From: Acidimicrobiales bacterium
Lineage (GTDB): Bacteria; Actinomycetota; Acidimicrobiia; Acidimicrobiales; RAAP-2
DNA: 37,635 nt
Reading direction: 5' to 3'
NCBI GenBank assembly: GCA_030043315.1
Contig: JASHYA010000132.1
Coordinates: 1-37,635 of the forward strand
Part shown: in pieces, positions 15,787 to 34,674 of the stretch
Layout of the letters: each line of letters begins with the position of its first letter
Numbering within the stretch: the first letter of the stretch is position 1
Translations under genes and position numbers: made by a program
Notes under the pieces: model-generated
Databases searched by the model: none
What the model saw: only the letters and a program-made list of their open reading frames with translations
Told to the model about the DNA's origin: nothing

Positions 15787-16326
15787 TCCCTCAGCGTCCC
15801 CCACCTGGTCGTCAGGTCGTCGCAATTGTCGCGAACTGAACGCGGACGCATGTCGCCCCGTTTCTGGTAGGCCTGCGTCTCCCAGGGCACGCTCCGACGA
15901 GGTCCAGGCCGAACCGGGAACAACACAGCAGTACTCCGGACGGACCGTCGACCGAACCGGAGAGGACAGCGTCGCGTGCGGCGCTCGAGTGCGACGGGAA
16001 GCCACATATACGTTGCACATCGCCGCCTGGGACCTTTCCGGCTGATGCGGCTAAAAGTTGGATAAGAGAGATTGCAAGGCCGGATAAGAATCGCGAGCTT
16101 CCAGCAGAAACAAACCGCTCTGCCCTTGCCGGTACGGGGTGTGCTCCTCGACACTGGGCTGATGATGCGAGCGTTGCGCAAACACATCCGCGTGGGCCAT
16201 CGTATGGAGCGTGGGCGAGCGCGTTGGCATCACCAGAATTGTCGACGTGCTCTTGGGCTGCCGATCGTCTCGCTTCGCTCTTGGTCCTTCGCTTGGGTGT
16301 GCCAAAGCAGTGAACTCGGGTCGTCT

Positions 16327-18099
16327 GTGAAGGCAAACTTGACAACCTCCGATGCTCGTCGTCGACGCGAGATCCACCCCGTTGAAACGTGCGTGAGACG
16401 AGGATTCCGACTCCGGTATCGCGTATCGCACATCGCCGCACTCGCTGCCACCACGATCCTCGCCGGGGTTATCGCTGTCCCCGCATCTGCGGCGGCGTCC
16501 GGTGGCCGCGCGACCGTCGAGCGGAGAGCGCCCGGGTTCAAGGCCACGCAATTGCCAAGGCTGCGCAGCAAACCAATGGTGCAACTCCAGGCTCAGCCGC
16601 TGCCTGTCCCCGATCAAGGCCTCGACCTGCGAGTGGGACAACGGGAGAACGGCGTCGTGCACGCCAGCGACGAATCGGCAAACTGGGCGGGCGAGATCGA
16701 CCTCGGCAGCACGTACAGCTCGGTCGCGGGGAGGTGGACCGTTCCTGCGGTCGTGCCCTCTTCGGCCGTTGAGGTTGCATCCAACTGGGTCGGGATTGGC
16801 GGCGACGGCATCACACAGCTGATCCAGGTCGGCACCGATTCTGTGAGCGGCGACGGTTCGACCACATACGTCGCGTGGTACGAGCTGCTCCCAGCGACAG
16901 CGATCACAATTCGAGAGCCTGTCTCACCAGGTGATGAGATGTCGGCGAGCATCGAAGAGACGTCCGCGAACCGCTGGTTCATCAGCATCGAGGACGTCAC
17001 GAAGGGCTGGACCGCGACAGGGACCTTCAGCTACACAGCCGGCCGGGCGAGCTCGGCAGAATGGATCACCGAGCGCCCATACACAGAAACCAGTCGAACA
17101 CTCGCCACGCTCGCCGATTTCGGTTCCGTGCGGTTCGATAACCTTCGAGCTAACGGTGCTGCCGTGGCAACGGCGGCCCTCACACCGGTGGAGATGGCTA
17201 ACCCCACAGGGAAGATCGTCGCGTACCCTGGGAAGCCCACCACCACAACAACAGGCAACTTCACCGTCTACTACGGCGGGCCGTCGACATCGACATCATC
17301 AACACCCAGGGTGCCGACACCGCCAAAAACGGCCCCCATTGTCACGGGCGTGTCGCCGTCGTCAGGTCCGACCGCGGGGGGGACCGCGGTCACGGTTATT
17401 GGGTCCAACTTCGTCGCAGGGGCAACGGTGCGCTTCGGCACGAAGGCGGCGACCCACGTCACGGTCACGGGTGCCACGAGGATCACGGCTACGAGCCCGC
17501 CTCACACCGCCGGTTCAACCAGAGTGACGGTGACGACCTCCGGTGGGACGAGCGTTGCCTCGGCGGCCGAGTTCTCGTACCTGGCACCGAAGGTGACCTC
17601 TGTCACGCTGCACAACGGGCCCACCGCGGGCGGGACCGTGGTCACGGTGATCGGATCCAACTTCGTCGCAGGGGCAACGGTGCGTTTCGGCACCAAGGCG
17701 GCGACCCACGTCACGGTCACGGGTGCAACGAGGATCACGGCTACGAGCCCGCCTCATACCGCCGGTTCCGTCGACGTGACCGTGACCATCCCCGGTGGGA
17801 CGAGCGTCGCCTCGCCCGCCGCCCTATTCGAGTATCTGGCACCGAGAGTGACCTCCGTGTCGCTGCACGAAGGACCGACCTCGGGCGGCACCGTGGTCAC
17901 GATCACCGGGTCCAATTTCGTTCGTGGAGCCACCGTGCGCTTCGGGACGAGGGCGGCGACGCATGTCACCGTCGTGAGCCCCACGAGGATCATGGCCACG
18001 AGTCCGACGCACACTGCCGGTTCCGTCGACGTGACCGTGACCATCGCGGGTGGGAAGAGCATGGCAACGCCTGCTGATAAGTTCAGATACCTTTCGTGA
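16327..18099 (+). CDS. Secreted G1 (eqolisin/glutamic) peptidase-like protein with three C-terminal IPT/TIG domains
   Basis: ORF 16072..18099; signal-peptide-like segment (AALAATTILAGVIAVPASAAA); G1-type motifs ESANWAG, GRWTVPAVVPSS, SNWVGIGGDGITQLIQVGT, WYELLPA, SAEWITERP; three IPT/TIG modules; exact start uncertain. Confidence 0.82.
   Translation: MKANLTTSDARRRREIHPVETCVRRGFRLRYRVSHIAALAATTILAGVIAVPASAAASGGRATVERRAPGFKATQLPRLRSKPMVQLQAQPLPVPDQGLDLRVGQRENGVVHASDESANWAGEIDLGSTYSSVAGRWTVPAVVPSSAVEVASNWVGIGGDGITQLIQVGTDSVSGDGSTTYVAWYELLPATAITIREPVSPGDEMSASIEETSANRWFISIEDVTKGWTATGTFSYTAGRASSAEWITERPYTETSRTLATLADFGSVRFDNLRANGAAVATAALTPVEMANPTGKIVAYPGKPTTTTTGNFTVYYGGPSTSTSSTPRVPTPPKTAPIVTGVSPSSGPTAGGTAVTVIGSNFVAGATVRFGTKAATHVTVTGATRITATSPPHTAGSTRVTVTTSGGTSVASAAEFSYLAPKVTSVTLHNGPTAGGTVVTVIGSNFVAGATVRFGTKAATHVTVTGATRITATSPPHTAGSVDVTVTIPGGTSVASPAALFEYLAPRVTSVSLHEGPTSGGTVVTITGSNFVRGATVRFGTRAATHVTVVSPTRIMATSPTHTAGSVDVTVTIAGGKSMATPADKFRYLS
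17404..17516 (+). repeat. IPT/TIG-coding repeat, copy 1
   Basis: 113-bp segment repeated at 17656-17768 with 4 mismatches counted by eye (offset 252 bp). Confidence 0.9.
17656..17768 (+). repeat. IPT/TIG-coding repeat, copy 2
   Basis: Near-identical to 17404-17516; a more diverged third copy begins near 17911 (offset 255 bp). Confidence 0.9.
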
Positions 18100-22405: not shown

Positions 22406-23614
22406 TTACATGAAGTTGCGGGTGTGGAGAGCGGAAAGCTCGGCGGCCTCGGTGGTGGCGAAGCCGAGCCGGACGAGACGTCGACGGCGTCCGTCATCCA
22501 TTTCCTCTTGAAGCCTGGCGACCTGCGCCCAGCCGCGGCTGATGGCCTCCTGCGACCACTCGCCTGCCGCGAGGACGACGAGCGCATCGTGGACTGCGTC
22601 CGACAGGCCTGCCGTCCTGGCCAGTACGTCGTGGCGCCGCCGGACCGCCGCCGCCAGCCGATGGCGGAGCGCCGGATCGCTCCTCAGGTGCTCTCCGAGA
22701 TGTCCCATCGCGAACGCCACGTGCCGCGCCTCGTCTTGGAGCGAGAGCTGGGCGATGCGTGCAGTCACGTGATCAGGGGCGTGGCGCTCGAGGAAGGACA
22801 GGAGCGAGAGGAACGTCCCTTCGCCGAGGACCGAGAGCAGGAAGGCGGCGACGGGCCACTCCGGTTCGTCGAGCAGCGTCTGCAGCGACGCACGCCCGCC
22901 GGCTCCCGAAACGCCAAGCTGCCGCCCGCAGAGACGGGCCCGCCGGGTGAACACCTCCACGTGGCGGGCTTCGTCGGCGAGCTGGGTGGCGAGGAACTGC
23001 ACCACCTCTCGGAAGTGCGGGTGGACCCGCCCGACGAAGCGGGCCGGTACGGCGAGCGCGGCCTGTTCGTTCTCGACGAGGTAGGTCATGACCTGGACGA
23101 CCGCATCTTCGACTTCGTCGGGAAGGTGTGGCGGGGTCCAGTCGACCGCGGTGGCGGGATCCCACTGTCCAGCGGCCGCCTGTGCGTACAACTTGGGGGC
23201 GAGCTCGGTCCAGACCTCCTCGCGCCGGTCGAGGTCCGCACCGACGAGGGGAGGGGCGCCCTGCTCGATCACCGCCCCACGCGCGGCCAGACTCCACGTC
23301 GCAGGTGCTCGCTCGGCGACCCGGTCCGGTGTGCCCGCCCGCTCCGCTCCGACCAACCGTCGATCTCCGGCGTCCCCCCGGACGACCAGGCTCCCCTCGA
23401 CGCGGTGGCCGCGCCGTCTGGCCCAGGCGCCGAGATGGACGGCCAGGTGGGGATCGCCGCCGACCACGCGGAGGGTGCTGCCGGGTGACAGCCCTGCCAG
23501 CGCGTGGTCGAGGAGCAAATGACCACCGCCATCGAGCCCGAGCGGCCCGAGATCGAGCTCTGGCACACGATCGGCCCCTGCCCCGACCTCGGGCAACTCA
23601 GGGCCGGTAGCCAT
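22406..23614 (-). CDS. TusA-like domain fused to ferritin-like diiron domain
   Basis: N-term LDLGPLGLDGGGHLLLDHALAGLSPGSTLRVVGGDPHLAVHLGAWARRRGHRV (TusA-like, Cys-Pro motif absent); C-term two E...DEARH pairs (NEQ..ADEARHVEVF; GEGTFL..QDEARHVAF). Confidence 0.7.
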   Translation of the reverse strand: MATGPELPEVGAGADRVPELDLGPLGLDGGGHLLLDHALAGLSPGSTLRVVGGDPHLAVHLGAWARRRGHRVEGSLVVRGDAGDRRLVGAERAGTPDRVAERAPATWSLAARGAVIEQGAPPLVGADLDRREEVWTELAPKLYAQAAAGQWDPATAVDWTPPHLPDEVEDAVVQVMTYLVENEQAALAVPARFVGRVHPHFREVVQFLATQLADEARHVEVFTRRARLCGRQLGVSGAGGRASLQTLLDEPEWPVAAFLLSVLGEGTFLSLLSFLERHAPDHVTARIAQLSLQDEARHVAFAMGHLGEHLRSDPALRHRLAAAVRRRHDVLARTAGLSDAVHDALVVLAAGEWSQEAISRGWAQVARLQEEMDDGRRRRLVRLGFATTEAAELSALHTRNFM

Positions 23615-24419
23615 CGGCGGTGATCGCCCCCTTGGGGTCGTAGAAGCCGACCCGGTCAACGGCCGCCTCGAGCGCGGCGTAGCCGGTCACGCGTCCGGGC
23701 AACCAGCGCGTGAGTCCCTCGAGGTCCATGAGCGGTCGCGCGGCGGGATCGGCGTAGTCCATGGCGAGCAGGAGCGCCACGAACCGATCGACCAACGGGT
23801 GGTCACCCGCCACCGACATGTTGCAGTGGTCGAACGGGGACGTCTGGGCGATCACGCGGGTGCCGCCTGCCGGAAGCGTGCCCTCCTGGCTGAAGAGGAG
23901 GTGGTTGGCGTCGAGCATGCAGGCGGCGTCGACGTCGCCTGCCGCCAGCGCACGGGCGGCGTCCCGCTCGCCGCCCACGTGGTCCCCGTGTAGACCGACC
24001 CCAACTTCGAAGCGCCGGACCTCCACGTCGACCCCTTCGAGGAGCCCGAGCGGCAGCAGCGTGCCCTGGGGTGAGTCGACGGCGCCGGTGGCGACGGTGG
24101 CCCCGGCGAGGTCAGCGGGCTGCTCGATCGTCGAAGTGGCTCGCACGACGAGCACCGACGTGAGGTCCCGGTCGGTGTCGCGCATGGCAACCGCGCGCGC
24201 TCCGGGCACCATGCGGCGGGTGCGGATCCATGCCAGCGGAGAGTTCCAGGCGGCGTCGATGCGCCCAGCCACCAGGTCCTCCACTTGGCGCTCGTAGTGG
24301 GAGTACAGGACGTAATCGAAGTCGAGGCCCTCGTCGGCAAACCAGTGGCGGAACCCGTCCCAGATGGTGACCACCTTGGGGTCATAGGCCACCGCCCCCA
24401 TGAGCAGCGGCGGGCTCAC
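23598..24419 (-). CDS. PhnD/SsuA-like substrate-binding-fold protein without obvious export signal
   Basis: MGAVAYDPKVVTIWDGFRHWFADEGLDFDYVLYSHYERQVEDLVAGRIDAAWNSPLAWI...LAGATVATGAVDSPQGTLLPL; starts directly in the mature fold. Confidence 0.75.
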   Translation of the reverse strand: MSPPLLMGAVAYDPKVVTIWDGFRHWFADEGLDFDYVLYSHYERQVEDLVAGRIDAAWNSPLAWIRTRRMVPGARAVAMRDTDRDLTSVLVVRATSTIEQPADLAGATVATGAVDSPQGTLLPLGLLEGVDVEVRRFEVGVGLHGDHVGGERDAARALAAGDVDAACMLDANHLLFSQEGTLPAGGTRVIAQTSPFDHCNMSVAGDHPLVDRFVALLLAMDYADPAARPLMDLEGLTRWLPGRVTGYAALEAAVDRVGFYDPKGAITADGYRP

Positions 24420-25531
24420 AGGAGGGCCATCCCGTTGATCGCCCGGCCGACGAAGTCGAGCAGGGCGTCGGTCGTGGGCGCCATGACGCGGGCGGCCCTA
24501 GCGTCGCGGAACCGGCGCTCGATGCCGAGCTCCTTGCGGAACGCCGAACCGCCGCAGAGCTTCATCGCCAGCTCGGTGACCGTGATTGCCGTCTCGCCTG
24601 CGGCCGCTTTGACCTCGAGCGCGCGAAGCGGCGCCTCCGGACGTCCGGCGGCGATGGCTGCCACCGCCTCGCCCACCAGTGCCGCCACCTGGTCGGTGGC
24701 GATCCGCATGCGAGCGTGGTCGGCCCGGGCCATCGGCTGGTCCACCAGCCGCTCGCCGAGGTGCTCGAGGCGCGTGGCCGTGAGGTGCGAGCCGGTCTCG
24801 GTCGTCACCGCGTCCATGAGGCCGACGCCGAGGGCGCCGCTCAGGACGAGGAACCACGGCAGCACCATCTGCAGGGCGAGGTCAAGGCCGGCGCCGTCGG
24901 CGCCGAGGGCGGCGTCCTCGGGCACGACGACTCCGGTGGCCTCGACCGGTGAGGAGCGGTTGCCGCGCAGTCCGAGCCCGTCGAAGCGCCCGGGTGGCGA
25001 AAGACCCGGTGCGTCCGAGGGCACGAGCCATAGCGACATGGGCCCTTCGCCGGCGACGGGACGGCTCGACCACACGTAACTGTCGGCCTCGCCCGCGGCG
25101 GTGATCCAGCTCTTCTTGGCGTCGAGGCGGATGCGGCCGTCGGTCCGGGTGGCCGTCGACAGCGGGGCCCAGAATTGGCTGCGAGACCCCTCCTCGGAGA
25201 AGGCCAAGGTCGTCAGGTGCTGACCGCTGCCGATCGCTTCGCGTACCGTCTCGTCGCCGTAGCCATCGAGGAGGGCGGCGGCGGCGTAGTGCATGAGCAC
25301 CACCATGGCCGTGGATCCGCACGCTTCCGCCAGCCGTCGGACGACGTCGACGGCGTCGGCGAGGCTGCCTCCGCCGCCCAAGGGCTCGGCGATGGTGAGG
25401 CCGAGGATGCCGGCCTCACCCAGCGCGTCGATGCCCCGGCGCGGGAAGGTGCCGTCGGCGTCGACCGAGGGGGCGTCCGGGCGGACGATGTCGTTGATGA
25501 CGCGCTCGAGCGCGTCGAGGTGGTTCGGCAT
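24416..25531 (-). CDS. Acyl-CoA dehydrogenase-like flavoprotein
   Basis: LGEAGILGLTIAEPLGGGGSLADAVDVVRRLAEACGSTAMVVLMHY; TLAFSEEGSRSQFWAPLSTA; KLCGGSAFRKELGIERRFRDARAARVMAPTTDALLDFVG; 4-bp overlap with the next gene. Confidence 0.88.
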   Translation of the reverse strand: MPNHLDALERVINDIVRPDAPSVDADGTFPRRGIDALGEAGILGLTIAEPLGGGGSLADAVDVVRRLAEACGSTAMVVLMHYAAAALLDGYGDETVREAIGSGQHLTTLAFSEEGSRSQFWAPLSTATRTDGRIRLDAKKSWITAAGEADSYVWSSRPVAGEGPMSLWLVPSDAPGLSPPGRFDGLGLRGNRSSPVEATGVVVPEDAALGADGAGLDLALQMVLPWFLVLSGALGVGLMDAVTTETGSHLTATRLEHLGERLVDQPMARADHARMRIATDQVAALVGEAVAAIAAGRPEAPLRALEVKAAAGETAITVTELAMKLCGGSAFRKELGIERRFRDARAARVMAPTTDALLDFVGRAINGMALL

Positions 25532-25727
25532 GTGGCATTCCTTCGTGAGGGTGAGCTGGTCAGTGGGAGGTGCACCCGGTGCGAACGGCCAGTCGGCCCG
25601 ACGGTCGGGCGGGCCGCGCACGGGCGTGCCGAAGTCCGGTGGCGCACGACGCGCCGCGGGCTATCGGTCTCGTTCAGGTGCAGGCTGAGAGGCGAGAGCC
25701 ACCCGACCGGGCGACCGAATCGCGCGC

Positions 25728-27380: not shown

Positions 27381-27980
27381 ATGACCCTGGGGAATGACCT
27401 TGCGGAGGACCGCGGCGTCTGGCTCGTTCGTCACGGAGAGAGCACGTGGAACGCGAGGGGACTCGTGCAGGGCCAGATGGACCCGGGCCTGAGCCGTGCC
27501 GGGCGCCAGGAGGCGGCCGAGTGCGCCCGGACCCTCGCCGCAGAGTCGAGGCCCGAGGCCCTCTACTCGAGCGACCTACGACGCGCACTCGACTCGGCGG
27601 CACCGATCGCCGAGGCGCTCGGGCTCGAGGTCCGTGTCGACTCGGACCTGCGGGAACGGTCGCTGGGCGAAGCCGAGGGAACTCCATGGCCGATGCTCGG
27701 TGCCGAGCGCTCGGGGATCGCAGAAGGGCGGGTGGTCGCGCCGGACGCCGCCCCCTCGGACGGCGAGTCGGTGCGACAGCTCTACGAGAGGGTCGCGTCG
27801 TGCGCGGCGCGGATCCTGTCTGCACACCGCGGAGACGTCGTGCTCGTCTGCCACGGCGGGGTCGTGCGGGTCCTGTCCGCGTGGCTCGAGGGCGTCGGGC
27901 CCGACGAGATGGCGTGGCCCGACGTCCCGAACGGAGTCCCGATCCTTCGCAGGGTTCCCCGCGCAGTGAATTGCGCCTGA
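27381..27980 (+). CDS. Histidine phosphatase family protein
   Basis: VWLVRHGESTWNARGLVQGQMDPGLSRAGRQEA; LYSSDLRRALDSA; VLVCHGGVVRVL. Confidence 0.93.
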   Translation: MTLGNDLAEDRGVWLVRHGESTWNARGLVQGQMDPGLSRAGRQEAAECARTLAAESRPEALYSSDLRRALDSAAPIAEALGLEVRVDSDLRERSLGEAEGTPWPMLGAERSGIAEGRVVAPDAAPSDGESVRQLYERVASCAARILSAHRGDVVLVCHGGVVRVLSAWLEGVGPDEMAWPDVPNGVPILRRVPRAVNCA

Positions 27981-27994
27981 GTCAAGGAGGACAG

Positions 27995-28768
27995 ATGAAC
28001 CGAACGACGCTCGCCTTGCCCGACCGTGCGACGAAGCCGCGACGCACTGGGCTGACGATGGTGGTCGACGGAGGTGTACCGCTTGGCACGTTGCGCGACA
28101 TCGTCGCCAGCGCCGGCGAGTACTTGGACTTCGTGAAGTTCGGCTGGGGAACCGCACTTGTGTCGGGCGAGCTCGGTGCCAAGATCGAGCTCCTCCGCGC
28201 GAACGACATCGATTTCTATTTCGGCGGAACGCTCTTCGAGAAGCACATCTATCAGGGACGCTTCGACGATTTCCGGGCGCTGTGCAACGAGTGGTCGTGC
28301 AGGTACGTCGAAGTGTCCAACGGCACCATCGAACTGTCGAACTTCGAGAAGACCGGCTACGTCCGGAAGCTGGCCGAGGAGTTCACGGTGATCTCGGAGG
28401 TCGGCTTCAAGGAGGCGGAGAGGTCGGACCGGCTCATGCCGCGTCGCTGGATCGAGTACGTGGAGGATGACCTCTCGGCAGGCGCGTGGCTCGTCACGCT
28501 CGAGGCGCGTGAGAGCGGGAGCTCGGGGATCTGCCATGCCGACGGCCAGCTGCGGGTGGGTTTGGTGGAGGAGATCGTGAGCGAGCTGGCCGTCGATCGC
28601 TTGCTTTTCGAAGCTCCTACGACGCCGCTACAAGCGCACATGGTGCGGCGCATCGGTCCCAACGTGAACCTCGGCAATGTCTCGCCCACCGGGGTGCTGG
28701 CTCTCGAGACGCTCCGGCTCGGGCTTCGAGCCGACACGCTGACCGACTTCGAAGGCGCAGAACCGTGA
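27995..28768 (+). CDS. comA: Phosphosulfolactate synthase (ComA family)
   Basis: LTMVVDGGVPLGTLRDIVASAGEYLDFVKFGWGTA, GGTLFEKHIYQGRFDDF, ISEVGFKEAE, LEARESGSSGI, LLFEAPTTPLQ, NVNLGNVSPTGVLALETLRLGLRADTL; strong SD aaggagg. Confidence 0.92.
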   Translation: MNRTTLALPDRATKPRRTGLTMVVDGGVPLGTLRDIVASAGEYLDFVKFGWGTALVSGELGAKIELLRANDIDFYFGGTLFEKHIYQGRFDDFRALCNEWSCRYVEVSNGTIELSNFEKTGYVRKLAEEFTVISEVGFKEAERSDRLMPRRWIEYVEDDLSAGAWLVTLEARESGSSGICHADGQLRVGLVEEIVSELAVDRLLFEAPTTPLQAHMVRRIGPNVNLGNVSPTGVLALETLRLGLRADTLTDFEGAEP

Positions 28769-29163
28769 GGGACCATCTCTTCCACCTCGCGATCCCGGTG
28801 ACGGACCTGGACGAGGCTCGCAAGTTCTATGTGACACAGCTCGGGTGCAAGCTCGCACGGACGTACCCCGACAGGATCACGCTTGACTTCTTCGGCGACC
28901 AGGTGGTCTGTCATCTCGCAGATCCCGAGCCACGCAGTACGCCGCTCTCGCTCTACCCGCGTCATTTCGGCATCACCTTCCGCAAGCGCAAGGAGTTCGA
29001 TCTCCTCTACGACCTCGCGCACCTGCGCAAGATCCGGTTCTTCCGTGACGTCTCCACTCGGTTCGACGGGACGGCGGAAGTGCACCAGACGTTCGTGCTG
29101 CAGGACCCGTTCGACAACCTCCTGGAGTTCAAGCACTACCGGGACCCGAGGATGGCGTACTGA
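28765..29163 (+). CDS. VOC (glyoxalase/dioxygenase superfamily) protein
   Basis: HLFHLAIPVTDLDEARKFYVTQLGCKLARTYPDRITLDFFGDQVVCHL...FVLQDPFDNLLEFKHY; GTG start overlaps the comA stop. Confidence 0.9.
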   Translation: MRDHLFHLAIPVTDLDEARKFYVTQLGCKLARTYPDRITLDFFGDQVVCHLADPEPRSTPLSLYPRHFGITFRKRKEFDLLYDLAHLRKIRFFRDVSTRFDGTAEVHQTFVLQDPFDNLLEFKHYRDPRMAY

Positions 29164-29164
29164 G

Positions 29165-30712
29165 GTGACCCTGACCATCCGTTCCGCCGAGACGACGATA
29201 CGCGCTGGGTCTGTCGGCGAGCTCCTTCGGCTCCGTTCCGACTTTTCGCGCGAAGCCGCCTACCTCGAGTACGCCGGCGGGGGTCGAGCTCCCGCGGTCA
29301 GCTACGGAGAGCTCCACCGAATGGCGGCTCGATGGGCGGCTTTCTTCAAGGAGCTGGGCGTCGGCCCCGGTGGGACCGTCGGGCTGGTCGTGTCTGACCC
29401 GGTGGAGATGGCGGTCGTCTTCCTCTCCGCGCTCGCGGCCGGACGAACGGTCGCACCGTTCGACTACACGGCGAGCGACGGTGAGCTCGTCGCCGCGTGC
29501 GCACGCACGGCGCCGCGGATCGTGATCTCCGACCGGAGCGCACCAGACGGCAATCGAACCAAGTGGGTCACGATGTTCCCCGGAGAGTGCTTCGGTCCGG
29601 GCGCACCCTTGTACGGCGGTGCAATGCCGTGCGCCGGTACAGGGGGAGTTGTGCTCTCCACGTCGGGGACGACCGGGGTTGCCAAGGTCGTCCGGCTCGA
29701 CGAGGCGCAGCTCCTCCACGCCGCGACCTCCATCGCCGATCACTTCGACCTCTCGCCCGGCGATCGCGGCTTCAACCCGTTGCCGCTCTTCCACATCAAC
29801 GCAGAGGTGGTCGGGCTGCTCGCGACGCTGGTGTCGGGCGGCACGATCGTGCTCGACGACCGGTTCCACCGTCAGGGGTTCTGGGCGGCCATGGCCTCCC
29901 AGGGGATCACGTGGATCAACGCAGTGCCTGCGATCCTCGCCAGGCTCGCCGTGCTCGAAGGCGGAGAGCGTGTGCCTGCCGGTATCCGCTTGGCACGGTC
30001 AGCGTCGGCGCCGTTGCCGGTGCCGGTGCTGGAGCGCTTCGAGCGAGCGACGGGGATCCCCGTCGTGGAGACCTACGGGATGACGGAGGCGGCCAGCCAG
30101 ATCACCGCTAATCCCCCACGTGGCCCGCGCAAGCCAGGCTCGGTGGGTGTGCCGGTGACCGCCGAGGTGCGTGTCGTCGCCGGAGAGGGTGTGCTGGCGC
30201 TCCCTGGCGAGGTCGGTCGGGTCGGGGTCCGCGGTCCGAGCGTGATCCGCGCCTATGCGTCGCCGGGCTACGAGGACCGGGTCGATGCCGATTGCTGGCT
30301 CGACACCGGCGACCTCGGCTACCTCGACGGCGACGGCTACCTCTTCCTCGTCGGCAGGGTGGACGACGTCATCAACCGAGGTGGCGAGAAGGTCTACCCC
30401 AAGGAGGTCGAGGACGCAGTCCTCGGCGAGCCGGGGGTCAGGTCGGTCGCCGTGGTTGGACGGGACCACGAGGTGCTGGGCAGCGTGCCGGTCGCGTACA
30501 TCGTCGCGGACGGCGTTCGGGGCGAAGGGGACGAACAGCTCGCGGGGGCCGTCGTCGCCCGCGTCCACGAGCGGTGCACGCGGCTGTTGGCGCGTCCGAA
30601 GCGCCCGGTCGCGTACCACGTCGTCGAGCGGTTGCCAGCGGGGCCGACGGGCAAGGTCCGCCGGAGCGGGGTCAACGGTGTGCCGGTGATCTTCTCGCTG
30701 CTCGTGCCGTAA
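29165..30712 (+). CDS. AMP-forming acyl-CoA synthetase/ligase
   Basis: ORF 28883..30712 with GTG start at 29165; STSGTTGVAKVVRL, VETYGMTEAASQ, CWLDTGDLGYLDGDGYLFLVGRVDDVINRGGEKVYPKEVEDAV, PTGKVRR. Confidence 0.92.
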   Translation: MTLTIRSAETTIRAGSVGELLRLRSDFSREAAYLEYAGGGRAPAVSYGELHRMAARWAAFFKELGVGPGGTVGLVVSDPVEMAVVFLSALAAGRTVAPFDYTASDGELVAACARTAPRIVISDRSAPDGNRTKWVTMFPGECFGPGAPLYGGAMPCAGTGGVVLSTSGTTGVAKVVRLDEAQLLHAATSIADHFDLSPGDRGFNPLPLFHINAEVVGLLATLVSGGTIVLDDRFHRQGFWAAMASQGITWINAVPAILARLAVLEGGERVPAGIRLARSASAPLPVPVLERFERATGIPVVETYGMTEAASQITANPPRGPRKPGSVGVPVTAEVRVVAGEGVLALPGEVGRVGVRGPSVIRAYASPGYEDRVDADCWLDTGDLGYLDGDGYLFLVGRVDDVINRGGEKVYPKEVEDAVLGEPGVRSVAVVGRDHEVLGSVPVAYIVADGVRGEGDEQLAGAVVARVHERCTRLLARPKRPVAYHVVERLPAGPTGKVRRSGVNGVPVIFSLLVP

Positions 30713-30731
30713 CCGTGCCCGTGGCCGAACT

Positions 30732-31961
30732 GTGACCCAACGGAGCACCAAGCCGCGCCTCGACCACGTCGACGCGATGCGACCGGTGAAGCAGGCAGGC
30801 GTGGTGTCGACGCACACGCTGCTCTTCTTCGCGCCCGGAGCCGCGATCTCGGTGGGAGGGGCTCTCATGCTGCTCCATGTCACCCGGGAGGCGTTCCTCT
30901 TCATCTCGGCGTGCATGCTCACGTACAGCTACTCGGACTTGCAGCGAATCGGCTACCGGTACTTCTATCGGCGCCGTTTCGTCTCGGTCGCCGTGCCGTA
31001 CGTGTGCTGGACCCTGATCTACTTCGCGGTGTCCCTGCCCGGTTCCGGGCTGGGGGCGTGGAGCGGGCTCCGCCATCTCGGCTTCCTATTGGGCACGGGC
31101 TACTACCAGCTGTACTACCTGGTCGTCATCATGCAGTTCTACATCCTCTTCCCGGCGCTCTACTGGATCGTTCGGCGTTTCGCGCACCGACCCTGGGCGC
31201 TCGTAGCGGCCGCGTTCGCGGTGCAGGTGCTCGTGGTGAGCCTCATGCACTGGCACGTCCTCCCGCCACAGATGCGAGGTGCCTCGGCCACCAGGGAGGT
31301 CACGTCCTACCTCTTCTACCTCGTGGCCGGGATGGTGGTAGCGCTCAACCTCGACGCAGTGCACGGCTGGCTCCTTCGCAACGGGTGGAAGGTCTTCGGC
31401 GCCACGGTGATCGCCGCCGTGGTCGCCGAAGCGTGGTACGGCGCGGCCCACGGCCACCTCGTCTCGTGGTTGGGCAACGCGACAGACCCCTTCCAACCCG
31501 TGGTGATCCCCTTCAACGTCGGGGCGATCGCGTGTGTCTACCTCTTCGGCGTGTGGCTCGTCGAGAAGCGACGCCCCCGCTGGATCCGGGCCATGGCGAA
31601 GTCAGGTTCGGACAACTCCTACAGCGTCTACCTCGCGCAGATGCTCTTCGTCTACGCGCTCTCGGACCTCGGCTGGCGCTCACTCGACCATGTCCTCCCG
31701 TGGCCGGTGGTGGCCGCCATGGCCGTGGCCATCGTCTTCCTCTCCTGCGTGCTGTTGTCCAGCGTGCTCGCACGCACGCCGCTCGCGCTCGCCCTGACCG
31801 GGCGAAGGCGCGAGCGTTGGTCCACCTGGCTTCCCCGGGGCTGGCGCCGCTCCGAGGACGGCGAGGGGAACACGTCGGCGTCGCCGATCGACCTCGACCT
31901 CGAGCGCGTCCCCGCGGCGTCGTGGACGGACGCGGCACCCGTGGCTGCCCGCGGCGGTTGA
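30732..31961 (+). CDS. Membrane acyltransferase (acyltransferase 3 family)
   Basis: ~10 hydrophobic segments; DHVDAMRPVKQAGVVSTHTLLFF; RRRFVSVAVPYVCWTLIYF; SYSVYLAQMLFVYAL. Confidence 0.82.
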   Translation: MTQRSTKPRLDHVDAMRPVKQAGVVSTHTLLFFAPGAAISVGGALMLLHVTREAFLFISACMLTYSYSDLQRIGYRYFYRRRFVSVAVPYVCWTLIYFAVSLPGSGLGAWSGLRHLGFLLGTGYYQLYYLVVIMQFYILFPALYWIVRRFAHRPWALVAAAFAVQVLVVSLMHWHVLPPQMRGASATREVTSYLFYLVAGMVVALNLDAVHGWLLRNGWKVFGATVIAAVVAEAWYGAAHGHLVSWLGNATDPFQPVVIPFNVGAIACVYLFGVWLVEKRRPRWIRAMAKSGSDNSYSVYLAQMLFVYALSDLGWRSLDHVLPWPVVAAMAVAIVFLSCVLLSSVLARTPLALALTGRRRERWSTWLPRGWRRSEDGEGNTSASPIDLDLERVPAASWTDAAPVAARGG

Positions 31962-31983: not shown

Positions 31984-32925
31984 TCACCGACGGCCCGCGC
32001 CCGACCGGACCGGCCGTGGGAGCCCAGCGCTGCGTTCCTGTCCGGCGGCGGTCGCTCCGGCACCAGCGATCGCGGCCGCAACCGCGTGGGCGATCACGCG
32101 GTAGCCGGCCGGGGTGGGGTGGATGTTGTGGTCGGTGCACATCCACGTGTTCGCGCATGCGTTCAGGACGGCGTGGAACCCGAGCCGCCCTCTCGAGGCT
32201 GGCGCGTGGGCGACGACCGCACCTGCAGCGGTGTAGGCGGCGGCGAGGGCGTCGTTCAACCGGTCGAAGACGCCGACCGTCTCCTGGGCGAAGCCCACGT
32301 GCCCGAAGAGCGCGTCCGCCACGTACGGGTCCGCATGCTGGAGGCCGACCATGACCAGATCCGGGCCGCCAGCCGCGCGCAGCTCCGCCAGGATGCTGGG
32401 GATCGCCGTGGAGATCCGGCTCAGTGCGGCGTCGACGCAGGCTTCGTCGACCGTGTGGTGCACGAGGCACGGCCAGATGTCGTTGAAGCCGAGGTCGACG
32501 GTGACGAAGGCGACATCACCCTCGTGGGCCTTGATGAAGTCCACTGCTGTGGCGACCTCCGAGCCCGCCACGTACCGGCACGCCCCGTCGCCGTCGAGGG
32601 CTCCCTGTGCCGTGATGCCCGGGCAGCCGAAGTCGACGAGCCGGAGCCCGGGCCAGCGGCTCTGTTCGCGCCTCGTGAGATCGTCGGCATACCCCTGATC
32701 GGTCCGCACCCCGTGACGGTCCCACGGGACGGGCTGGACCCCGACGGCCTCGGACGCGCCGATCGCGACGTACCAGGGCCCCGGCCGCACGGGGATCGCT
32801 TCGCCGGCTCCCGCCGCCGTCGCTGAGCCTAGGAGAACGGCGAGCGCGATCACCGTCCCGCAGGCTGCCAGCGAGGCGCGAGCGGCGAAGTGCCGTCGAG
32901 ATGGACCCGGTATCCGCCGACCCAC
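31984..32925 (-). CDS. Secreted SGNH/GDSL hydrolase
   Basis: Signal-peptide-like N-terminus; YVAIGASEAVGVQP, FVTVDLGFNDIWPC, CTDHNIHPTPAGYRVIA; GTG start at 32925 inferred. Confidence 0.82.
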   Translation of the reverse strand: MGRRIPGPSRRHFAARASLAACGTVIALAVLLGSATAAGAGEAIPVRPGPWYVAIGASEAVGVQPVPWDRHGVRTDQGYADDLTRREQSRWPGLRLVDFGCPGITAQGALDGDGACRYVAGSEVATAVDFIKAHEGDVAFVTVDLGFNDIWPCLVHHTVDEACVDAALSRISTAIPSILAELRAAGGPDLVMVGLQHADPYVADALFGHVGFAQETVGVFDRLNDALAAAYTAAGAVVAHAPASRGRLGFHAVLNACANTWMCTDHNIHPTPAGYRVIAHAVAAAIAGAGATAAGQERSAGLPRPVRSGAGRR

Positions 32926-33081
32926 TGAAATGAACGTAGCGGACGCGTCCCTCGCCGGCCCAATACCGGGGTCGTCGTGCCGGTGACGGCGCCGGGCGGC
33001 CGATCCGTCCGAGGAGGAGGCGGAGCCCTGCCCACCAGTTGTGCCACGTGGCCGGTGCAGCGCGCCGCATAGCCTGGATCC

Positions 33082-34674
33082 GTGGCCGCGCGTGACGAGA
33101 TCACCCGCCGGACCGACTCGGGCATCGTGGTCCGGACGGTGTACGGCCCCTCCGACCTCGAGGGGTGGGACCCGGCGGAGCGGCTCGGCGAGCCAGGAAG
33201 GTACCCCTACACGCGCGGCGTCCACCCGGACATGTACCGGCGACGGCTGTGGACCATGCGCCAGTACGCGGGGTTCGGCACGGCCGATGCCACCAACGCG
33301 CGGTTCAAGTTCCTCTTGCAGCACGGCCAGACCGGGCTCTCCTGCGCGTTCGACCTGCCGACGCAGATGGGCTACGACTCCGACCACCCCCGAGCGGAGG
33401 GGGAGGTCGGCAAGGTCGGTGTCGCCATCGACTCGCTCGCCGACATGCGCCTACTCCTCGGCGGGCTCCCGCTCGACACGGTCACGACGTCGATGACGAT
33501 CAACGCGACCGCCGCCATCCTGCTTCTCCTCTACCAGCTGGTCGCCGAAGAGCAGGGCGTCAGTGGCCACAAGCTGGGCGGGACGATCCAGAACGACATC
33601 CTGAAGGAGTACGTCGCCCGCGGCACCTACATCTATCCGCCGCGACAGTCGATGCGCCTGGTCGTCGACACCTTCGCCTACTGCCGCGACCAGCTCCCGA
33701 ACTGGAACACCATCTCGATCTCGGGATACCACATCCGCGAAGCCGGCTCGACGGCGGTTCAAGAGGTCGCCTTCACCCTCGCGGACGGGATCGCCTACGT
33801 GGAGGCCGCGCTCGCGGCGGGGCTCGCGGTCGACGACTTCGCGCCGAGGCTGTCCTTCTTCTTCAACGCCCACAACGACCTCTTCGAAGAAGTCGCGAAG
33901 TTCCGCGCCGCCCGGCGGATGTGGGCACGGATCATGACCGAGCGCTTCGCGGCGGCGGACGACCGCTCCAAGGTGCTCCGGTTCCACGCGCAGACCGGGG
34001 GCTCGACGCTCACCGCGCAACAGCCGGAGAACAACATCGTCCGCGTCACCGTCCAGGCGCTCGCAGCGGCGCTTGGGGGCACGCAGAGCCTGCACACGAA
34101 CGGTTTCGACGAGGCGTTGGGGCTGCCGACCGAGCGTGCGGCGAAGCTGGCCCTCCGCACGCAGCAGATCGTCGGCTTCGAATCGGGCGTCGCCGACACT
34201 GTCGACCCTCTCGGAGGCTCCTACTACCTCGAGACGCTCACGGACGAAGTCGAGCGCGGCGCGCTCGCGTACCTGGAGCGGATCGACGAGTTCGGAGGTG
34301 CCGTGGCCGCCATCGAGGCCCGCTTCCTCCAGGAGGAGATCGAGGCCGCGGCGTACGCCTACGCCAAGGCCGTCGACGACGGGGAGAAGGTCGTCGTAGG
34401 GGTCAACCGCTTCGTCGACGAGGACGTGGAGGCCGCTGAGGTGTTCCCGGTCGACCCGGAGCTGCAGCGAGCGCAGGTGGAGCGTCTCGCCCATGTCCGC
34501 GCAGAGCGCGACGCGGGAGGTGTCGCTGCGGCGCTCGACGACGTGCGCGCGGCCGCCCGCGGCACCCAGAACCTCCTCGTCCCGATGAAAGTGGCGCTCC
34601 GGCGGATGGCCACGCTCGGCGAGGTCTCCGACGCCCTGCGCGACGAATGGGGCACCTACCGGCCCGGAGGGTGA
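33082..34674 (+). CDS. Methylmalonyl-CoA mutase-type large subunit (no B12-binding domain)
   Basis: [106 protein letters not shown]; protein ends without the DxHxxG B12 domain. Confidence 0.93.

Follow-up and report, generated by a model that had tools for sequence, protein, structure and literature searches.

The window analyzed here, a stretch of 37,635 nucleotides (nt) from an Acidimicrobiales genome (contig JASHYA010000132.1), contains five consecutive same-strand genes encoding a histidine phosphatase, a homologue of the (R)-phosphosulfolactate synthase ComA, a VOC-fold protein, an AMP-forming acid ligase and an integral membrane acyltransferase of the AT3 family (Table 1). These five genes almost certainly form a conserved unit, and our analysis supports the separation of this unit from coenzyme M (CoM) synthesis. 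The genes are linked, are lost and gained as a unit, include in one genome a fusion of ligase and AT3, and lie apart from the gene clusters of CoM synthesis; the substrates that we assign to them are predicted. With a probability of about 0.4, we propose a dedicated operon for sulfonated envelope modification, in which sulfolactate would be activated and transferred to an envelope acceptor.

The five genes are gained and lost together

We searched for ComA in 101 relatives of the window's genome, in 398 genomes sampled across the phylum and in 299 across the order, and inspected about 20 kb around most matches. ComA homologues above about 52% identity to the window protein (hereafter clade A) have the same companion genes alongside, whereas homologues at 38–48% identity stand without them. 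Clustered clade-A loci were found in 27 genomes, with ComA and the ligase present in all 27, VOC in 26, AT3 in 25 and the histidine phosphatase in 22; at both loci lacking AT3, the contig ends within the ligase gene. Represented are the window's genus, three more genera within its family, a further three families of the order (f16, f22 and f31), and f80, a family that lies outside it. Chance does not explain such a grouping, which is kept in 27 genomes from five or more families of mostly uncultured actinobacteria and in which overlaps between successive genes recur.

Presence and absence follow the same lines. Among the 101 relatives, VOC proteins of at least 51% identity occur in exactly the 19 genomes that have clade-A ComA and in none of the other 82. 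The ligase is found at E ≤ 1e-60 in the same 19 genomes, with 14 candidates scored per genome and weak paralogues not exhaustively ranked, and AT3 in 18 of them, the contig of the 19th ending inside the ligase gene. Two congeners without ComA (G009 and G010) are also missing VOC, ligase and AT3. Across the phylum sample, 6 of the 398 genomes have the VOC orthologue; they are the six with clade-A ComA and include one family outside the order. Note here that such counts share ancestry and position, and they show joint gain and loss rather than independent events.

Individual loci depart from this pattern. One (L100, genome G715) keeps ComA, ligase, AT3 and phosphatase with no room for a VOC gene and is a natural VOC-less variant. 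At two loci of family f80 (L095 and L096), a second, stand-alone clade-A ComA exists besides the clustered copy; a DNA methylase gene lies near both, and an SBP_bac_5 protein is encoded at L096.

Four gene orders were found among clade-A loci. The window type is phosphatase-ComA-VOC-ligase-AT3; L045 and L047 have ComA-VOC-ligase-AT3 with the phosphatase downstream on the opposite strand; the remaining two are AT3-ligase-ComA-VOC-phosphatase (f16, L048) and ligase-AT3-ComA-VOC (f22, f80). An earlier reading of this DNA from its letters alone (the sequence-only reading) had looked to relatives for the same five-gene order without comB, comC or comDE. This expectation has largely held in that the gene set is kept and comB and comDE are not alongside, although the order is not fixed and comB-like genes occur elsewhere in some genomes. 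The two phosphatase subfamilies and two AT3 groups that fill the same slots (see below) suggest that activities, and not just sequences, have been selected.

The ComA and VOC genes usually overlap by 4 or 8 nt across loci, and the ligase and AT3 genes often by 4 nt. At one locus (L048:10361-12967), AT3 and ligase form a single open reading frame (ORF) of 868 amino acids, in which Acyl_transf_3 covers 12-340 and AMP-binding covers 419-723. This fusion comes from one genome, where an assembly error is possible; taken as it stands, it indicates that the acid of the ligase is very probably the group moved by AT3. That the ligase feeds AT3 is very likely, and the suggestion that the two enzymes belong together gains from both the natural fusion and the 4-nt overlaps.

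ComA points to sulfolactate rather than coenzyme M

The window ComA matches PF02679 at 270.5 bits (cut-off 25.2), spanning positions 2-243 of 243, and is 48% identical to Bacillus subtilis YitD (1u83) and 36% identical to Methanocaldococcus jannaschii ComA (1qwg). It does not reach the cut-off of TIGR03849, the archaeal ComA equivalog (222.9 versus 280 bits), which lowers only the claim to an archaeal-type ComA of CoM synthesis. The close match to ComA noted earlier thus stands for the full-length family and for YitD, and not for the archaeal model. YitD shares 100 identical positions with M. jannaschii ComA, of which the window protein retains 68, and D20, K43, E79, E103, E133, K137, E168, R170, E205, N224, N227, R240 and R244 (M. 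jannaschii numbering) are all invariant in clade A. We take Lys137 to be the proposed catalytic lysine of ComA.

In a maximum-likelihood tree, clade A groups with YitD (support 100/99) and apart from the ComA of known CoM loci and its relatives. Since clade A falls with YitD and away from the CoM enzymes, sulfolactate and not CoM is the expected product, and we consider it probable, judging from ComA, that the operon makes sulfolactate. YitCD has been linked to spore sulfolactate, a compound that makes up about 5% of the dry weight of B. subtilis spores (PMC517825).

Methanogens and Xanthobacter-type bacteria also begin CoM synthesis with ComA (PMC8727900), and the operon could in principle serve ordinary CoM biosynthesis with the remaining genes scattered. 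However, no sulfopyruvate decarboxylase (ComDE) was found above the TIGR03846 cut-off in any of 30 genomes, and ComB is absent from most. The lyases and pyridoxal-phosphate (PLP) enzymes that adjoin ComA of CoM-type clades, among them the Xcb lyase and PLP genes, are absent from this operon and sit beside no clade-A ComA. The ComB and ComDE genome searches, together with the ComA tree, lead us to reject CoM biosynthesis, to which we assign a negligible probability. No ComB (PF04029) was found in the window's own genome (G000), which is 59% complete; an absence from this genome alone carries little weight, and the argument is borne by near-complete relatives. At the clustered loci, comB and comDE are not beside the operon, as had been stated for the window.

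Other ComA homologues were met in different settings. An annotated ComA homologue of Corynebacterium glutamicum, cg2797, is 3.2-fold induced at pH 6.0 (PMC2627906), which may tie bacterial ComA to acid stress. A further ComA clade (families f61, f81 and f84; L105, L106, L108, L110 and tree neighbours) is accompanied in several genomes by a LysR regulator and a FAD-binding_2 oxidoreductase, a conserved setting of a different kind with no CoM genes. Other Acidimicrobiales and Actinomycetota have ComA of the CoM-type clade (L114, L116, L120, L121, L125-L134), and at L125 lyase, PALP, AIR-synthase-like and amino-acid-kinase genes adjoin it. On a Legionella lytica plasmid (L137:3847-6759), ComA is the C-terminus of a protein of about 970 amino acids, with an aminotransferase before it and a ComB-annotated gene after it.

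The companion enzymes

The sequence-only reading had placed the histidine phosphatase where a ComB activity would be expected. This slot is filled in most clusters (22 of the 27) and by two histidine-phosphatase subfamilies, of the LRER and LREV types, but in some families no such gene lies alongside. The RHG, LRE and H158 motifs are invariant in 20 cluster homologues. The best named models are CobC (alpha-ribazole phosphatase; the top match), the bifunctional RNase H/acid phosphatase and PspA, all under their cut-offs, and the nearest PDB protein is glucosyl-3-phosphoglycerate phosphatase, which represents a C3 phospho-acid context.

The VOC protein has 44 invariant positions besides M1 across 22 sequences, including H7, H67 and E121, which are likely metal ligands, and many arginines and histidines, a charge pattern that would suit a small anionic substrate. 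A scan against NCBIfam matched no named family. The protein is 67% identical to PDB 3rri, presumably from Alicyclobacillus acidocaldarius, for which we know of no function; all 44 invariant residues are kept there. Alicyclobacillus isolates have been reported to carry comA (PMC10562698). An epimerase or isomerase would be our guess for the activity of the VOC protein.

The nearest PDB entries to the ligase are oxalate-, succinylbenzoate- and malonate-CoA ligases and FadD13. Its AMP-binding and C-terminal domains are both present, and the lysine of the C-terminal GK motif (K497) is invariant. Given that sulfolactate is a small dianion, the proximity to ligases of small dicarboxylates is counted in favour of sulfolactate activation. 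In AT3, R17 and H28 of the R-X10-H motif, defined in transmembrane helix 1 of these proteins (PMC9833829), are invariant in 22 homologues; a profile search against PDB gave spurious matches only. AT3 proteins take acyl groups from acyl-coenzyme A (acyl-CoA) at the membrane and attach them to sugars outside the cytoplasm, and succinyl is a known anionic group among those transferred; osmoregulated periplasmic glucans carry succinyl and methylmalonyl groups (PMC9558356). Congeners, and not the window, have a second AT3 (31-32% identical) between the operon AT3 and the GDSL gene (L035:5080-6189, L037:5605-6696, L038:8736-9845, L040:13554-14648 and L041:13774-14895).

Two kinds of esterase adjoin the clusters. 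In the window's genus and other genera of the same family, as well as at L046 and L049, the cluster is flanked by a GDSL/SGNH hydrolase whose start resembles a signal peptide. The second kind, a polyhydroxybutyrate (PHB)-depolymerase-like esterase that has a hydrophobic segment near its N-terminus, comes after the cluster at L048, L097, L098, L101, L102 and L104. Their export was assessed by visual inspection of the sequences; esterases of this appearance alongside the cluster point to an ester outside the cytoplasm.

A proposed route and its alternatives

In the route that we propose, ComA would join sulfite and phosphoenolpyruvate to give (R)-2-phospho-3-sulfolactate, as its conserved catalytic core and the chemistry of its family suggest, and the histidine phosphatase would strip the phosphate in place of ComB. 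More speculatively, the VOC protein, which accompanies ComA at almost every locus, might bind or isomerize this anionic intermediate. The ligase would form sulfolactyl-AMP and sulfolactyl-CoA, and AT3 would move the sulfolactyl group across the membrane onto a hydroxyl of an extracytoplasmic glycan or lipid, a kind of transfer that is known or proposed for succinyl groups in ExoH, OpgC/MdoC and IcaC. The ester could then be trimmed or finished by a secreted esterase of the GDSL or PHB-like kind. Sulfolactyl-CoA as the donor is the simplest reading that would use every gene. Somewhat more tentatively, we suggest that the product may be an undescribed envelope modification, O-sulfolactylation, by which glycans or lipids at the surface of Acidimicrobiales and actinobacteria related to them would come to bear a strongly acidic C3-sulfonate ester.

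Several observations weigh against this route. Neither a glycosyltransferase nor any other acceptor gene is consistently present near the clusters. Weak, distant ComB-like matches lie away from the operon in 5 of the 25 clade-A ComA genomes searched (G001, G002, G005, G012 and G659), that is, in four of the eight congeners searched and in G659, and four loci (L033, L049, L097 and L098) have no phosphatase beside the cluster. Fatty-acyl ligases, too, are similar to the ligase (FadD13 among PDB entries, FadD7 in the model scan). Finally, the AT3 proteins of two cluster types are only 26-31% identical, and their acceptors may therefore differ.

The likeness to FadD7 and FadD13 would fit a different use of the same enzymes, where the substrate of the ligase is a fatty acid or some other acid and AT3 places this acyl group on the hydroxyl of sulfolactate or of a conjugate, yielding an O-acyl-sulfolactate sulfonolipid or surfactant. 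AT3 enzymes do acylate hydroxyls, some with longer acyl groups, such as isovaleryl in the case of CarE (PMC9558356). However, dicarboxylate ligases are the top PDB matches, and characterized AT3 proteins mostly acylate sugars outside the cytoplasm, whereas sulfolactate would arise inside; the adjoining esterases do not discriminate. We regard such a lipid as unlikely. If the pathway instead stopped at free sulfolactate, which would serve, as with yitCD, as a compatible solute, as a protectant like that of spores or as a sink for sulfite, ligase and AT3 would be an independent travelling module. The place of YitD within the ComA clade, the abundance of sulfolactate in spores and the isolated ComA copies without the module in f80 genomes speak for this possibility, but ligase and AT3 accompany clade-A ComA at all clustered loci except those truncated by the end of a contig, are absent when ComA is absent, and stay with the other genes through every rearranged order, which makes it rather unlikely in our view. 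The product might also not be sulfolactate at all, if clade-A ComA adds another nucleophile to phosphoenolpyruvate or acts on another enolate. The 68 of 100 shared residues and the score under the archaeal ComA cut-off would allow for a changed substrate, yet every position of the conserved core is invariant in clade A, and we consider a change improbable.

The locus in the window

The checks of ORFs and Pfam domains confirmed every detail of the layout described earlier for the five genes, from their shared strand and identities to their places and gaps (Table 1). The phosphatase and ComA genes are separated by 14 nt, ComA and VOC overlap by 4 nt (GTGA), and spacers of 1 nt and 19 nt follow between VOC and ligase and between ligase and AT3. 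A scan for promoters and terminators gave nothing above chance. The ORF of the GDSL/SGNH esterase begins with a signal-peptide-like N-terminus, and its true start is probably inside the ORF.

Table 1. The operon and its associated features, in positions of the window
Feature	Position	Strand	Support
Histidine phosphatase (branch 1), proposed phosphosulfolactate phosphatase	27381-27980	+	PF00300, E 5.9e-45
Shine-Dalgarno-like AAGGAGG ahead of the ComA ATG	27984-27990	+	Read directly in the sequence
ComA, (R)-phosphosulfolactate synthase homologue	27995-28768	+	PF02679, E 1.6e-80
VOC-fold metalloenzyme candidate	28765-29163	+	PF00903, E 1.5e-12
AMP-forming acid ligase (ANL superfamily)	29165-30712	+	PF00501, E 1.3e-52, and PF13193
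AT3-family integral membrane acyltransferase	30732-31961	+	PF01757, E 4.9e-30
GDSL/SGNH esterase, convergent neighbour, associated and not core	31984-33387	-	PF13472/PF00657

Three neighbouring genes were considered as operon members and rejected: the methylmalonyl-CoA mutase (33082-34674) and an M20-type hydrolase adjoin only in the window's genus, and a ThiF/rhodanese gene only in congeners. Elsewhere in the window, a gene pair at 23598-25621 resembles Mycobacterium tuberculosis Rv1680 (substrate-binding-like) and Rv1679 (FadE16), below the model cut-offs, and the gene at 16072-18099 encodes a protein with a Peptidase A4 domain, of the acid glutamic peptidase family, and TIG domains at its C-terminus; such a protein would fit life in an acidic environment.

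Significance and comparison with known systems

ComA homologues are widespread in bacteria without CoM, and outside CoM synthesis and Bacillus spores their role still calls for an explanation. This operon offers a concrete, testable route, in which the making of a sulfonate would be tied to the activation of an acid and to acyl transfer at the membrane. A literature search on sulfolactate with acyltransferases returned no description of such a cluster. If the proposal is true, it would add a new acyl group to AT3 surface chemistry and a new source of organosulfonates, and would give a pathway context to an orphan VOC family with a solved structure, that of 3rri, which matches the window protein at all 44 of the positions checked.

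Among the closest known systems is yitCD of B. subtilis, whose ComA belongs to the same clade, with phosphosulfolactate as the presumed first product. ComB (YitC) is present there, whereas the operon described here has no adjacent ComB, mostly a histidine phosphatase, and no tie to sporulation genes. To our knowledge, no ligase, AT3 or VOC has been described with yitCD. The CoM pathways of bacteria (Xanthobacter Py2 xcb; Mycolicibacterium chubuense etn/xcb) also begin with a ComA homologue, but fumarase/aspartase-type lyases and PLP enzymes follow there and are not found in this operon, whose ComA falls in a separate clade of the tree. With the archaeal ComA-ComB-ComC-ComDE pathway, the first step is common; here ComDE is not over the cut-off and ComB is mostly missing. 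On the acyltransferase side, the succinyltransferases ExoH, OpgC/MdoC and IcaC (PMC9558356) have the same PF01757 domain and R-X10-H motif and, in the proposed model, would likewise draw on an anionic acyl donor. However, they use succinyl-CoA from central metabolism, whereas the present operon would hold its own dedicated synthesis and activation of the acid, the activating enzyme being in one case fused to AT3 itself.

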